From NCBI GenBank assembly GCA_003550665.1, contig PUKW01000319.1, positions 1-36,065 of the forward strand: DNA of 36,065 bases, given 5' to 3'. This document shows, piece by piece, positions 26,427 through 31,707 of this stretch (the first letter of the stretch is position 1; the number at the start of each line of letters is the position of its first letter). The notes below the pieces were generated by a model that saw nothing but the letters and a program-made list of their open reading frames with translations, was not told where the DNA came from and did not search any database. Source of the DNA: Paracoccaceae bacterium (GTDB taxonomy: Bacteria; Pseudomonadota; Alphaproteobacteria; Rhodobacterales; Rhodobacteraceae). The position numbers were made by a program, and so were the translations under genes.

Positions 26427-26451
26427 AACGCGACAAGGCCGGATAGGTTCC
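26427..26451 (-). promoter_or_regulatory. EcfG-type promoter facing ctaG
   Basis: On the reverse strand GGAAC (26451-26447) and CGTT (26430-26427) are separated by exactly 16 bases, the EcfG consensus. The next firm reverse-strand gene is ctaG, 431 bases downstream. It stands back to back with the PRC-barrel promoter. Confidence 0.65.
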
Positions 26452-26485
26452 GTCCAAAGTCAGGACTCTTTTGCCGCTGGGCCAT

Positions 26486-26510
26486 GGAACCCGACCGTGG
26501 CGGCGGCGTT
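26486..26510 (+). promoter_or_regulatory. EcfG-type promoter of the PRC-barrel gene
   Basis: GGAAC (26486-26490), 16 bases, CGTT (26507-26510). The -10 ends 49 bases before the ATG at 26560. Confidence 0.82.
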
Positions 26511-28184: not shown

Positions 28185-28209
28185 AACGCGCGACGCGCGC
28201 CGATGTTCC
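28185..28209 (-). promoter_or_regulatory. EcfG-type promoter of the DUF1328 gene
   Basis: Reverse strand GGAAC (28209-28205), 16 bases, CGTT (28188-28185). The -10 lies 57 bases from the DUF1328 ATG. Confidence 0.82.
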
Positions 28210-28231: not shown

Positions 28232-29974
28232 TCAGCCTTCCGCGGCGCCCCCGCGCGCGCCGCGAAACCGAAGCGCGACGCGGAAGGCGGGGCCGTCATC
28301 CGTCTCGATCGGACCCTGCTCGGCCTCGGTGTCGAGCTGCGTGCTGAAGGCGTGGATCAGCCGGTGGCCGAGCTGCCCGTCGGCGCCCTCGCCCGGCTCC
28401 ACCGGGGCGGCGCAGGTGTTGACGATCTCGAGGACGACATCGCCCTCGGCCGTCTCGGTCAGTCGCACATCGATGCGCGCCGTGCCGCCCACCGGCTGCC
28501 CGACATATTTGAGCGCGTTGATCAGCGCCTCGGTCGCGAGCAGCGACAGCGGCACCACCTGGTCCGGGTCCAGCGTGACCGGATCGAACTTCGTTTCGAC
28601 GGCGATGTCGCTGCCCGGCAGCGTGCTCATGGAGACGAGCTTGCTGACGATCCCGCCGAGGAGCTCGTCGGCGCGCAGGGCGGACAGCCGCTCGGACCGG
28701 TAGAGGCTCTCATGGATCGTGGCGAGCGTCATCACCCGCTCGTGCAGACCGTGCAGCAGCGCGCGCGCTTCGGTGCTCTCCACCTGGCGCGCCTGGATGC
28801 TGATGATCGAGGCGATGAGCTGCAGGTTGTTCTTCACGCGGTGATGCACCTCGCGCAGCAGGACCGTCTTTTCGCTCACCGATGCCTCGAGCTGCGCCTC
28901 GTCGCGCGCGAGCACCTCGGCGAGCTCGCGGAAGGTGGCGCTCAGCTCGCGGATCTCGTCGGGTGCGCGCTCGAGGATCTCGGGCGGTTCACTGCGTTCG
29001 GTGTGCGCGAAGCTGTGCATCTGCGCGCCCAGCGTGCGCACATGGCGGATCACGAGCCGGTGCGCCGCGAAATAGGCCACGCCGAGGCTGACCAGCCAGA
29101 CGAGCACGGCAAAGCCGAGCGTGCTCGACGCCGGGGGTTGATCGCGCGACGGAAGATCTTCGTCGGACCAGATGCCGAGCGCGTAAAGCCGCTCCTCGAT
29201 CAGCGGCACCACCGTGTAGGTGCGCCCATCGCCGCCGGCGCTGGTCTGTCGCAGCACGGTGCGCTCGCCACCGGCGAAGGAGTCGAGGTCACGCCCGGCG
29301 GGGAGCTCGTCGGTGATGTCTTCGTCACCGGGGGCCGTGCTGATGACATCGCCGCTGCGGGTGAACAGGATGCTGTGGCTCGGCTCCCGCTCCTGGCCGA
29401 ATTCGCGCACGAAATCCATCGCGTAGAGCGGCAGCGCGAAGATCACGAACCCGGCGAGTTCGTCATCCTCCTCGATGGGGCTCGCGATCACCAGCGCGGA
29501 GCGGTCGGTGATCTCCCAGTCGGGATCGAGCTCGATCACCGGCTCGTCGCGATCGCGCACGCGTTCCAGCAGATCCGCGTCTGACAGATCCGCGTCGGTC
29601 TCCTCGGAGGCACACAGCATCGCGCCGTCGGGATCGGTGAAGCCCGCGAAGATGAACAGCCCCGCACCGTCGATGAAATCCGCCAGCGCCTTGTCGCATT
29701 CCTCCGGCTCGTCGCGATTGTCGAGGGCCGCCGACCCCAGCGCATCCGCCGAGCCGAACGCGCTCTGGATCAGCGCAAGCTCGCCGGAGATCGACTCGAA
29801 TGTCAGACCGAGCAGCGCGGTCTCGGCGCTGCGGCGCGCCTCGCTTTCGGCGCGGTTGTTCTGCATCACCGCGATCATTCCAAGCGGCACCAGCGCCAGC
29901 GTCAGCATGATCAGGAGCCGGAATCCGAGCCCGCCCGACATCGCCCGCAGCCGCGCCACCAGCCGCGTCAGCAT
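28232..29974 (-). CDS. Membrane HisKA_2 sensor histidine kinase of the general stress response
   Basis: A 580-residue sensor kinase. Helix 1 is at about 17-37. A large acidic extracytoplasmic sensor domain runs from about 38 to 290, and helix 2 is near 300-325. A HAMP-like linker follows. The HisKA_2 box [20 protein letters not shown] carries H377-H378, and the HATPase domain starts near [11 protein letters not shown]. HisKA_2/HWE kinases of this type phosphorylate PhyR to release EcfG. ATG 29974 is 5 bases beyond the ecfG stop, so the kinase belongs to the nepR-ecfG operon. The acidic periplasmic domain is the likely input; its signal is unknown. The receiver-type partner is probably PhyR at 30830. 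Confidence 0.92.
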
Positions 29975-29978
29975 CGCG

Positions 29979-30548
29979 TCACCGCGACGTCGCGGGCTTG
30001 GCGGGCGCAATCCCGTTCGCGGTCGGATCGCTGATCGCGGGGTGCTCGTCGGGGCCGAGTTGCAGCATCTCGGCGAGCCGGGCGCGCCCGCGATTGGCGC
30101 GGCTCTTGATCGTGCCGATCGCGCAGCCGCAGGTCTGCGCCGCTTCCTCGTAGGAGAACCCCGACGCCCCGATCAGGATCAGCACCTCGCGCTGATCGTC
30201 GGGAAGCTGTGCGAAGGCGCCGGCGAAATCGCGCAGCGCGAGGCGGCCGTCATGATCGGGTGCCTGCGACAGCCGCGCGGCGAACGCGCCGTCGACATCC
30301 GCAGTTTCGCGCCGCCCCTTGCGCTGCATGGAGTAATAGCTGTTGCGCAGGATCGTGAACAGCCAGGCGCGCATGCTCGTGCCCGGTGTGAAATGGTCGA
30401 GCTTGCTCCACGCCTTGAGAACCGTATCCTGCACGAGGTCGTCCGCGGTGGCCGGGTTGCGCGCGAGGCTCAGCGCGAAGGCGCGCAGCTCGGGCACCGA
30501 CGCGACGAGCGCATCGCGCGGCGCGGTGACGGGGGCCGGGTCAGTCAT
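29979..30548 (-). CDS. ecfG: General stress ECF sigma factor EcfG
   Basis: A 189-residue sigma factor of the ECF15 (EcfG) group. Region 2 covers about 15-85 (ALSLARNPATADDLVQDTVL, then KAWSKLDHFTPGTSMRAWLF). Region 4 covers about 110-165 (LPDDQREVLILIGASGFSYE, CGCAIGTIKSRANRGRARL). It recognises GGAAC/CGTT promoters, of which six occur in this region. NepR sequesters it until PhyR is phosphorylated. Its ATG overlaps the nepR stop by 8 bases (ATGACTGA), so anti-sigma and sigma are translationally coupled. Confidence 0.95.
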   Translation of the reverse strand: MTDPAPVTAPRDALVASVPELRAFALSLARNPATADDLVQDTVLKAWSKLDHFTPGTSMRAWLFTILRNSYYSMQRKGRRETADVDGAFAARLSQAPDHDGRLALRDFAGAFAQLPDDQREVLILIGASGFSYEEAAQTCGCAIGTIKSRANRGRARLAEMLQLGPDEHPAISDPTANGIAPAKPATSR

Positions 30549-30726
30549 CGCGCTGCTCCTGTGCCTTCAGCCGCTCGAGCAGATCGCGCAGGTGGTCGGG
30601 AAGCTCATCGTCGAGCGACGCCCGGTAGAGCCGGCGCAGGTTCGCATCGATTTGCTGTTCGATCGCGGGGGGGACCTCTTCGGGGGTGTTGGGGTCGGCG
30701 TCGTCTCCTGGATCGCGTCGTGCCAT
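30541..30726 (-). CDS. nepR: Anti-sigma factor NepR
   Basis: A 61-residue protein. The conserved NepR core IEQQIDANLRRLYRASLDDE then LPDHLRDLLERL matches the family pattern (two helices that mimic or clamp sigma). It holds EcfG inactive and is titrated by phosphorylated PhyR. ATG 30726 is favoured by GAAGG upstream; an earlier start at 30762 would overlap the promoter pair. It is first in the nepR-ecfG-kinase operon and lies divergent to phyR. Confidence 0.93.
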   Translation of the reverse strand: MARRDPGDDADPNTPEEVPPAIEQQIDANLRRLYRASLDDELPDHLRDLLERLKAQEQRDD

Positions 30727-30769
30727 GGTGAAGCCTTCTGTCCTGACACCGAATTTGTGCATCTGCCCG

Positions 30770-30794
30770 GGAACAAAACGCCGCGGCGCGCGTT
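30770..30794 (+). promoter_or_regulatory. EcfG-type promoter of phyR
   Basis: GGAAC (30770-30774), 16 bases, CGTT (30791-30794); the -10 ends 35 bases before the phyR ATG. It shares 18 bases with the opposing nepR promoter. Confidence 0.88.
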
Positions 30795-30801
30795 CTGTTC
30801 C
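30777..30801 (-). promoter_or_regulatory. EcfG-type promoter of nepR-ecfG-kinase
   Basis: Reverse strand GGAAC (30801-30797), 16 bases, CGTT (30780-30777); the -10 lies 50 bases before the nepR ATG. Interleaved with the phyR promoter so that 30770-30801 is a near-palindrome. Confidence 0.88.
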
Positions 30802-30829: not shown

Positions 30830-31672
30830 ATGACGGGGACGGACGATTTTTCCCGGGGCGCGCCCCCGGACAGCGCGGGCGACAGGGCCGCCCTGATCGC
30901 GCAGGAGCTGCCCTATCTGCGCCGCCATGCGCGCGCGCTCACCGGCAGCCAGCAGCTCGGCGACCACGCCGCCGCGGCGACGCTCGAGGCGATCCTGCAT
31001 GACGGCGATCTGCTCGATGCGGGGCTGCGGCCGCGGGTCGCTCTGCTTGATGTCTTCTACCGGATCCGGGCGGCGAGCGGCGCCACGATGGGCTCGTGGG
31101 AGCCCGGCACGCCCGAGGCACTGGCCGAGCGCCATCTCGCCCGGCTCACGCCGCTGAGCCGCGAGGCGCTCCTGCTGAGCACCATCGAGGAGCTGCGCTT
31201 CGACGAGATCGCGCGGGTCATGTCGATCGAGCAGGCCGAGGCCGAGCGGCTCGTCGCCACCGCCAAGCGCGAAATGAGCGCGACGGTGGCCGGCCGGCTC
31301 CTCGTGATCGAGGACGAAACCCTGATCGCGATGGACATCGAGAGTATCGTCACGCAGATGGGTCACGGTGTGACCGGGATCGCGCGCACCCGCGATCAGG
31401 CCGTCCGCCTCGCCGCGCGCGAACGCCCCGACCTGATCCTCGCCGATATCCAGCTCGCCGACGGGTCCTCAGGCATCGACGCGGTCAGTGACATCCGCGC
31501 CGAGGCCGGCGAGATCCCGGTGATCTTCGTGACGGCCTATCCCGAGCGGCTCCTGACCGGGGCGCGGCCCGAGCCCGCCTTCCTGATCACCAAGCCCTAT
31601 TCGGACGCACAGCTGCAATCGGCCGTCAGCCAGGCGATGTTCTTCTCCTCGACCGCGACCCTGACCGGCTGA
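30830..31672 (+). CDS. phyR: Sigma-mimic response regulator PhyR
   Basis: A 280-residue cytoplasmic regulator. The N-terminal 140 residues resemble ECF sigma regions 2 and 4 (LPYLRRHARALTGSQQLGDH, LTPLSREALLLSTIEELRFD) but lack promoter-binding function. The C-terminal receiver starts near GRLLVIEDETLIAMDIESIV, with phospho-acceptor D206 in LILADIQLADGSSGID and the switch region VIFVTAYPERL, and K in LITKPYS. Phosphorylated PhyR binds NepR and frees EcfG (partner switching). ATG 30830 follows AAGGGGGG. Own EcfG promoter overlapping that of nepR, so positive autoregulation is expected. Confidence 0.95.
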   Translation: MTGTDDFSRGAPPDSAGDRAALIAQELPYLRRHARALTGSQQLGDHAAAATLEAILHDGDLLDAGLRPRVALLDVFYRIRAASGATMGSWEPGTPEALAERHLARLTPLSREALLLSTIEELRFDEIARVMSIEQAEAERLVATAKREMSATVAGRLLVIEDETLIAMDIESIVTQMGHGVTGIARTRDQAVRLAARERPDLILADIQLADGSSGIDAVSDIRAEAGEIPVIFVTAYPERLLTGARPEPAFLITKPYSDAQLQSAVSQAMFFSSTATLTG

Positions 31673-31682
31673 GCCGCGCGGC

Positions 31683-31707
31683 GGAACAACGCCGCGCGCG
31701 CCGCGTT
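31683..31707 (+). promoter_or_regulatory. EcfG-type promoter after phyR
   Basis: GGAAC (31683-31687), 16 bases, CGTT (31704-31707), 51 bases before the ATG of a 39-residue peptide at 31759. It begins 11 bases after the phyR stop. Confidence 0.82.

Follow-up and report, generated by a model that had tools for sequence, protein, structure and literature searches.

How could one 32-bp palindrome between nepR and phyR serve both arms of the PhyR/NepR/EcfG partner switch, and could two RNA polymerases start from it at once? The palindrome lies in the window, by which we mean the whole stretch of DNA analysed (36,065 nucleotides from a Paracoccaceae bacterium), at a locus where phyR is divergent from nepR-ecfG according to Pfam domains and coordinates, the arrangement of an alphaproteobacterial general stress response (GSR) locus. 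The commonest arrangement has nepR-ecfG and phyR in divergent orientation, with EcfG promoters driving both (PMC4814048; here and below, PMC numbers refer to the available parts of the papers). We consider it quite probable, judging from sequence and conservation, that the palindrome is a single bidirectional EcfG promoter which would accept one polymerase at a time.

A palindrome with an EcfG-type promoter motif on each strand

The features of an EcfG target promoter, namely GGAAC, a spacer of 16-17 and a CGTT-like -10 box, were found on both strands, each time with a spacer of 16 (Table 1). This confirms the claim of the preliminary description that GGAAC-N16-CGTT occurs on both strands with the -10 boxes in each other's spacer, and the gene names given there (nepR, sigma, sensor and phyR) are borne out by Pfam domains. 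Each -10 box lies in the spacer of the opposite promoter, 2 bp inward from its -35 box; the two -10 boxes are separate, 10 bp apart, and the predicted transcription starts are 37 bp apart. We take the EcfG group to be ECF15-type. The starts were predicted by analogy with Caulobacter, where one SigT motif is reported at -34 of its start (PMC4287350); in Sinorhizobium meliloti 1021, RpoE2-dependent promoters precede the starts of both rsiA1 and rsiB1 (PMC3616915).

Table 1 Features of the proposed bidirectional promoter and of the neighbouring genes in the window.
Feature	Position	Strand	Remark
Interleaved palindrome, proposed bidirectional EcfG promoter	30770..30801		GGAACAAAACGCCGCGGCGCGCGTTCTGTTCC
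phyR-ward EcfG-type -35 box GGAAC	30770..30774	+	same box in aligned family loci
phyR-ward -10 box CGTT, spacer 16	30791..30794	+	NGTT at 16/17 in 144/152 paired loci
nepR-ward EcfG-type -35 box GGAAC	30797..30801	-	same box in aligned family loci
nepR-ward -10 box CGTT, spacer 16	30777..30780	-	NGTT at 16/17 in 143/152 paired loci
Predicted phyR transcription start	30804	+	first G of -35 plus 34, from Caulobacter SigT motif
Predicted nepR transcription start	30767	-	same derivation from Caulobacter SigT motif
phyR, sigma-like and receiver domains, anti-anti-sigma factor	30830..31672	+	Pfam PF22029, PF22233, PF00072
nepR, anti-sigma factor	30541..30726	-	Pfam PF18557
ecfG, ECF-type sigma factor	29979..30548	-	Pfam sigma70 regions 2 and 4
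HWE/HisKA_2 sensor kinase	28232..30010	-	Pfam PF07568, PF07536

The distance between the ATG codons of phyR and nepR is 103 bp by coordinates. The likelier start of nepR is the ATG at 30726, preceded on its strand by GGACAGAAGG, which fits the predicted leader better than an alternative ATG at 30762, where the leader would be only about 5 bases long. In the list of open reading frames the kinase frame overlaps the end of ecfG, and the kinase probably belongs to one operon with ecfG. A single NepR match was found in the genome and, among the matches listed, a single PhyR match. Rfam and tRNA scans of the window returned no matches.

The window contains six matches to GGAAC-N15..18-CGTT against 0.57 expected, a number that none of 100 shuffles attained, and the exact 32-bp geometry is single-copy in the 3.15 Mb genome. 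Single GGAAC-N16..17-CGTT sites occur 31 times genome-wide, compared with 23 for the reversed pattern, which is little over background, so an isolated motif means little. What count are the pair, its place and its conservation.

Loci and counting rules

The order sample comprised 196 genomes of 88 genera, all belonging to one family, the Rhodobacteraceae, and PhyR was detected in at least 144 of them. Its loci (L001-L151) were taken from the PhyR matches listed, in most cases the top match of a genome; L002 and L149 were dropped for having no full PhyR, and L055 for having no ecfG. From 569 PhyR relatives 80 named loci were kept, four of which had no divergent ecfG in the flanking DNA taken; the nearest named relatives include Paracoccus, Loktanella, Gemmobacter, Pseudooceanicola and Marivita. 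Sample and relatives together place the window in the Rhodobacteraceae as broadly defined by GTDB. Altogether, 224 loci with a divergent ecfG were reduced to 204 distinct ones. At the class level 60 loci (L152-L211) were taken from the listed matches, and 32 of these had a divergent ecfG within 900 bases. A PhyR tree was built from 53 family and 29 class loci, chosen from 253 usable proteins, with a midpoint root only.

In the loose census, the best site per strand was picked independently with at most two mismatches. The strict rule called for GGAAC or GCAAC, NGTT and a spacer of 16 or 17; both -35 boxes were admitted because they are the two most frequent ones of GSR promoters in Sphingopyxis (PMC7083833). 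For the same reason, GCAAC in some Paracoccus loci is not read as a decayed -35 box (PMC7083833). The alignment set consisted of 150 interleaved loci with spacers of 16 and 17 only.

The paired sites in Rhodobacteraceae

The exact 32-bp form was found in 24 of the 196 genomes (18 of 88 genera) and its reversed control in none. All 24 matches are flanked by phyR and ecfG, which are on opposite strands, and in 22 of them nepR was also detected by tblastn. When the symmetric element was allowed a core of 10 or 11, giving 32 or 33 bp, it was present in 38 of the 196 genomes, representing 26 of the 88 genera, again with no match to the reversed pattern; the 14 extra matches are all at phyR, ten according to tblastn and four by their position beside PhyR matches. 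Among the named carriers, Gemmobacter fulvus (plasmid p2, 32 bp) and Dinoroseobacter shibae (pDSHI02, 33 bp) have both sites perfect, and Ketogulonicigenium vulgare (32 bp) has one mismatch in the nepR-ward site. At the Roseobacter litoralis locus no pair at 8 of 9 or better was found.

The loose census of the 204 loci gave an outer length of 31-33 in 147, of 27-28 in 22 and another value in 10, with no pair in 25. Dinucleotide shuffles yielded 0.55 (31-33) and 6.7 (27-28) pairs per 204-locus set, and when partners were swapped between loci the 31-33 class averaged 27 and never exceeded 43, against the 147 observed. According to the strict rule, 158 of the 204 loci are two-sided: 136 are interleaved (31-33 bp), 21 nested (27-28 bp) and one has another layout. 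A pair at phyR/nepR is thus a conserved feature of the family, being interleaved or nested in 157 of the 158 two-sided loci. Only a nepR-ward site was present in 34 loci, only a phyR-ward site in nine and neither in three. In 100 sets of mononucleotide shuffles under the strict rule no 31-33 pair appeared, and there were 0.17 nested pairs per 204 loci. The outer lengths of strict pairs are quantised at 27, 28, 31, 32 and 33 with none in between, and only ten pairs were found at other offsets. It is very likely that the two-way arrangement is a built-in design and not a coincidence.

The spacing of the boxes is kept on each strand. Among 152 GGAAC/GTTCC pairs of outer length 31-33, NGTT follows at a spacer of 16 or 17 in 144 on the phyR-ward strand, in 143 on the nepR-ward strand and in 136 on both. 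The 150 interleaved loci fall into outer lengths and spacer pairs as follows: 32 with 16/16 (n = 65), 33 with 17/17 (n = 38), 32 with 16/17 (n = 18), 31 with 16/16 (n = 12), 32 with 17/16 (n = 9), 33 with 17/16 (n = 5) and three single cases. Symmetry is broken in 33 of the 150 while both promoters remain within spacing, and these asymmetric pairs indicate that the spacer is conserved rather than the symmetry. Information content is at most 0.27 bits in the central columns (13-19 for loci of 32 bp, 12-20 for loci of 33 bp). It reaches or approaches 2 bits in the -35 boxes and in the GTT of the -10 boxes, in part because these were search requirements, whereas the base at the start of the -10 box is variable.

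Perfect sites are found phyR-ward in 103 of the interleaved loci, nepR-ward in 88 and on both sides in 64. The two halves have identical -10 boxes in 75 of 150 loci, compared with 65.5 after permutation, a value matched or exceeded in 48 of 5000 permutations with relatedness ignored. Equal strength of the two halves is weakly supported by these numbers, and matched strength, tested as a proof of balance, turned out to be a weak one.

Three loci (L022, L023 and L090) carry an additional nepR-ward EcfG-type site with its -35 box about 40 bp upstream of the phyR-ward one, in L022 and L023 in addition to the interleaved pair. On the phyR side, about 3-7 bp outside the palindrome, the aligned family loci share a conserved A-rich tract, which has no equally distant counterpart on the nepR side; the tract might belong to the phyR leader or act as an upstream element of the nepR-ward promoter.

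Layouts elsewhere in Alphaproteobacteria

Among the 32 class-level loci, the -35 boxes stand back to back in 11 (outer value -6 to -9). An interleaved pair is present in four, namely L156 and three loci from family f42, and a nested pair, not always the top-scoring one, in three loci from family f37; 14 fit none of these three layouts. The exact 32-bp pattern occurs in two of the 385 genomes of the class sample, and at one of the two (L002) its neighbour is just a receiver-domain match and not a full PhyR; the exact form is therefore not general in the class. The search for the same overlap in other alphaproteobacteria, called for by the preliminary description, accordingly had a divided outcome: the overlap is family-wide in Rhodobacteraceae and is not general in the class, where 14 of 32 loci have none of the layouts and 11 of 32 are back to back.

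In family f37, 10 of 12 PhyR genomes contain a nested GGAAC..GTTCC of outer length 27 or 28 whose two strands both carry a strict site. In family f42, five of six loci contain an inverted repeat of 32 bp in which the nepR-ward site is perfect and the phyR-ward -10 box reads CATT; these repeats (L339-L343) are not counted by the strict rule, and CATT hints at a weaker or different phyR-ward -10 box in that family. The sites of S. meliloti Ak57 are back to back at -5, with the -35 boxes 5 bp apart, and not interleaved. At the locus of Sphingomonas parapaucimobilis, which has a different gene order, no phyR-ward site was found.

In the PhyR tree the Rhodobacteraceae group together (100/100), with interleaved loci on either side of a weakly supported first split under the midpoint root, and the nested form occupies one well-supported subclade of seven rows (100/99). 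The family ancestor may well have been interleaved, with the nested form derived from it at least once and reached separately by f37.

A proposed shared promoter and its alternatives

In the mechanism that we propose, EcfG-RNA polymerase would dock on the palindrome in either orientation and start phyR on one strand or nepR-ecfG-kinase on the other, though not the two simultaneously. The stretch melted in an open complex runs from about -11 to +2. Each open complex would thus cover and melt the -35 box of the other promoter, so two polymerases should not occupy the element together; mutual exclusion of this kind, as claimed in the preliminary description, is supported by the geometry and seems hard to escape. 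In the back-to-back lineages exclusion is less certain, because neither start region covers the boxes of the other.

Stress would free EcfG, and both arms of the partner switch would then rise together from the shared site. The ratio of initiations would depend on the relative recognition of the two orientations and not on the amount of active EcfG, and this constraint would be visible only near saturation, that is, at high occupancy. In a steady-state calculation a shared site held the output ratio constant while the sigma level varied 10^4-fold, even with one side clearing slowly, whereas with two separate sites of unequal affinity or clearance the ratio drifted. At low occupancy the two designs behaved nearly alike, in agreement with E. 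coli, where competition was reported only at raised activity (PMC12825309). Competition for the element may be what sets the phyR/nepR ratio, although we place exclusion well above this claim. Partner switches depend on the stoichiometry of sigma, anti-sigma and anti-anti-sigma factors, and a promoter that fires on one side at a time would be a simple physical tie between them.

Two observations bear on how far such a tie would reach. By the strict rule 43 of the 204 loci are one-sided and three have no site, hence two-way use is not indispensable. In Rhodobacter sphaeroides, a member of the family, membrane stress raised ecfG mRNA in a PhyR-dependent manner and phyR mRNA was not raised, a difference which speaks against simple equal output, its locus geometry lying outside our comparison (PMC5830050).

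The same evidence may be read in other ways. The two sites could be ordinary promoters packed for economy, with an overlap of no regulatory consequence at the usual occupancy in the cell. The gap is short, both genes need EcfG, other lineages place their sites back to back, and no competition was seen at basal activity in E. coli (PMC12825309); on the other hand, packing for economy leaves the quantised spacing unexplained, since many offsets other than 27, 28, 31, 32 and 33 would fit, and the nested form recurs in another family, f37. We find this reading somewhat doubtful yet deserving of serious weight. Alternatively, only the nepR-ward promoter might matter, its partner being passive or decaying and phyR being read from another promoter. 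Such a one-way element would agree with the excess of loci having nepR-ward sites alone (34, compared with nine phyR-ward), with CATT in all five f42 repeats and with R. sphaeroides, where phyR mRNA did not track ecfG mRNA (PMC5830050). It is nevertheless unlikely, as the phyR-ward site is perfect in more of the 150 interleaved loci than the nepR-ward one (103 against 88) and NGTT stands at 16/17 phyR-ward in 144 of 152 pairs.

A palindrome may also be the operator of a dimeric DNA-binding protein, and the long, near-perfect inverted repeat GGAACCAAACGC-N8-GCGTTTGGTTCC seen in several loci has that appearance. The distance between half-sites, however, takes any of the five values 27, 28, 31, 32 and 33 instead of being fixed, asymmetric forms are common (33 of 150), each strand retains the EcfG spacer of 16-17, and the half-sites equal the published EcfG consensus (PMC7083833, PMC4287350). 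The operator was rejected, because half-site distance and symmetry vary and the promoter spacer does not; we regard it as highly improbable.

Returning to the bidirectional promoter, a broader claim can be put forward tentatively, and we lean somewhat against it: the elements might constitute a distinct class of ECF bidirectional promoters with at least two, perhaps three, alphaproteobacterial origins, locking the ratio of PhyR to NepR-EcfG transcripts at any level of active EcfG. In such a class two complete promoters would interleave, or each -35 box would double as the -10 box of the other. One hexamer of the nested form may indeed be a -35 box for one strand and a -10 box for the other, and such a two-way promoter would be unusually compact. 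With one gene pair carrying interleaved, nested and back-to-back forms in related lineages, a natural comparison for promoter exclusion is ready to hand.

Comparison with known promoters

The closest parallel is provided by the E. coli sigma70 bidirectional promoters described by Warman, Grainger and colleagues, in which initiation is mutually exclusive, competition appears only when activity is raised, and the ratio of forward to reverse output was reported to be unaffected by polymerase concentration (PMC12825309). Here as there, pseudo-symmetric DNA would take the polymerase in two orientations, one at a time, and the element lies between functionally linked divergent genes, as is often the case in E. 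coli (PMC12825309). The E. coli type has a shared -10 box and starts 10-23 bp apart (PMC12825309), in contrast to the ECF-type sigma factor, the two separate interleaved -10 boxes and the predicted starts 37 bp apart of the present element; in the nested form each -10 box overlaps the -35 box of the other promoter. A further difference is that here one locus carries the element in most loci of a family. The element would thus work like a bidirectional promoter, and is not of the E. coli sigma70 type.

Published divergent phyR/nepR-ecfG loci have the same genes, the same order and EcfG control on both sides, and the available parts of these accounts give promoters on both sides without describing an overlap (PMC4814048, PMC3616915). 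Similarly, GSR promoters of the form GGAAC-N16-17-C/GGTT were predicted in Rubellimicrobium, with no overlap described in the available part of that paper (PMC12148442). At hrpL/hrpJ, a promoter is repressed when holoenzyme carrying the ECF sigma factor HrpL is bound at its divergent neighbour (PMC5263251). This resembles the proposed behaviour of the present element, but the repressed promoter is sigma54-dependent, it is the activator site that is occluded, and the arrangement is not a symmetric two-way ECF promoter (PMC5263251). Among the matches listed from the open-access literature, no description of interleaved or nested EcfG promoters was found.

Further EcfG-type sites in the genome

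Other EcfG-type sites are present in the window. Two lie back to back at 26427-26510, one on the minus strand (26427-26451) and one on the plus strand (26486-26510), the latter preceding an acidic, secreted-looking open reading frame that by eye resembles PRC-barrel proteins. Two more are found at 28185-28209 and 31683-31707; the first stands before a DUF1328 gene, and the second follows phyR and precedes an AI-2E family transporter gene. With these two the window looks like a small stress-response island.

A second ecfG-like gene of the same genome (47.5% identity) is divergent from an AI-2E family transporter gene, and the two are separated by a region with a perfect nested palindrome (L312 1501-1527; contig C294, 11647-11673) with GGAAC-N16-CGTT on both strands and an outer length of 27, which may be due to chance, a fraction of one being expected per genome by a rough estimate that assumes the GC content. 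The other nested palindrome found (L304) sits inside a reading frame, in surroundings which we take to be respiratory complex I genes from the look of their open reading frames.
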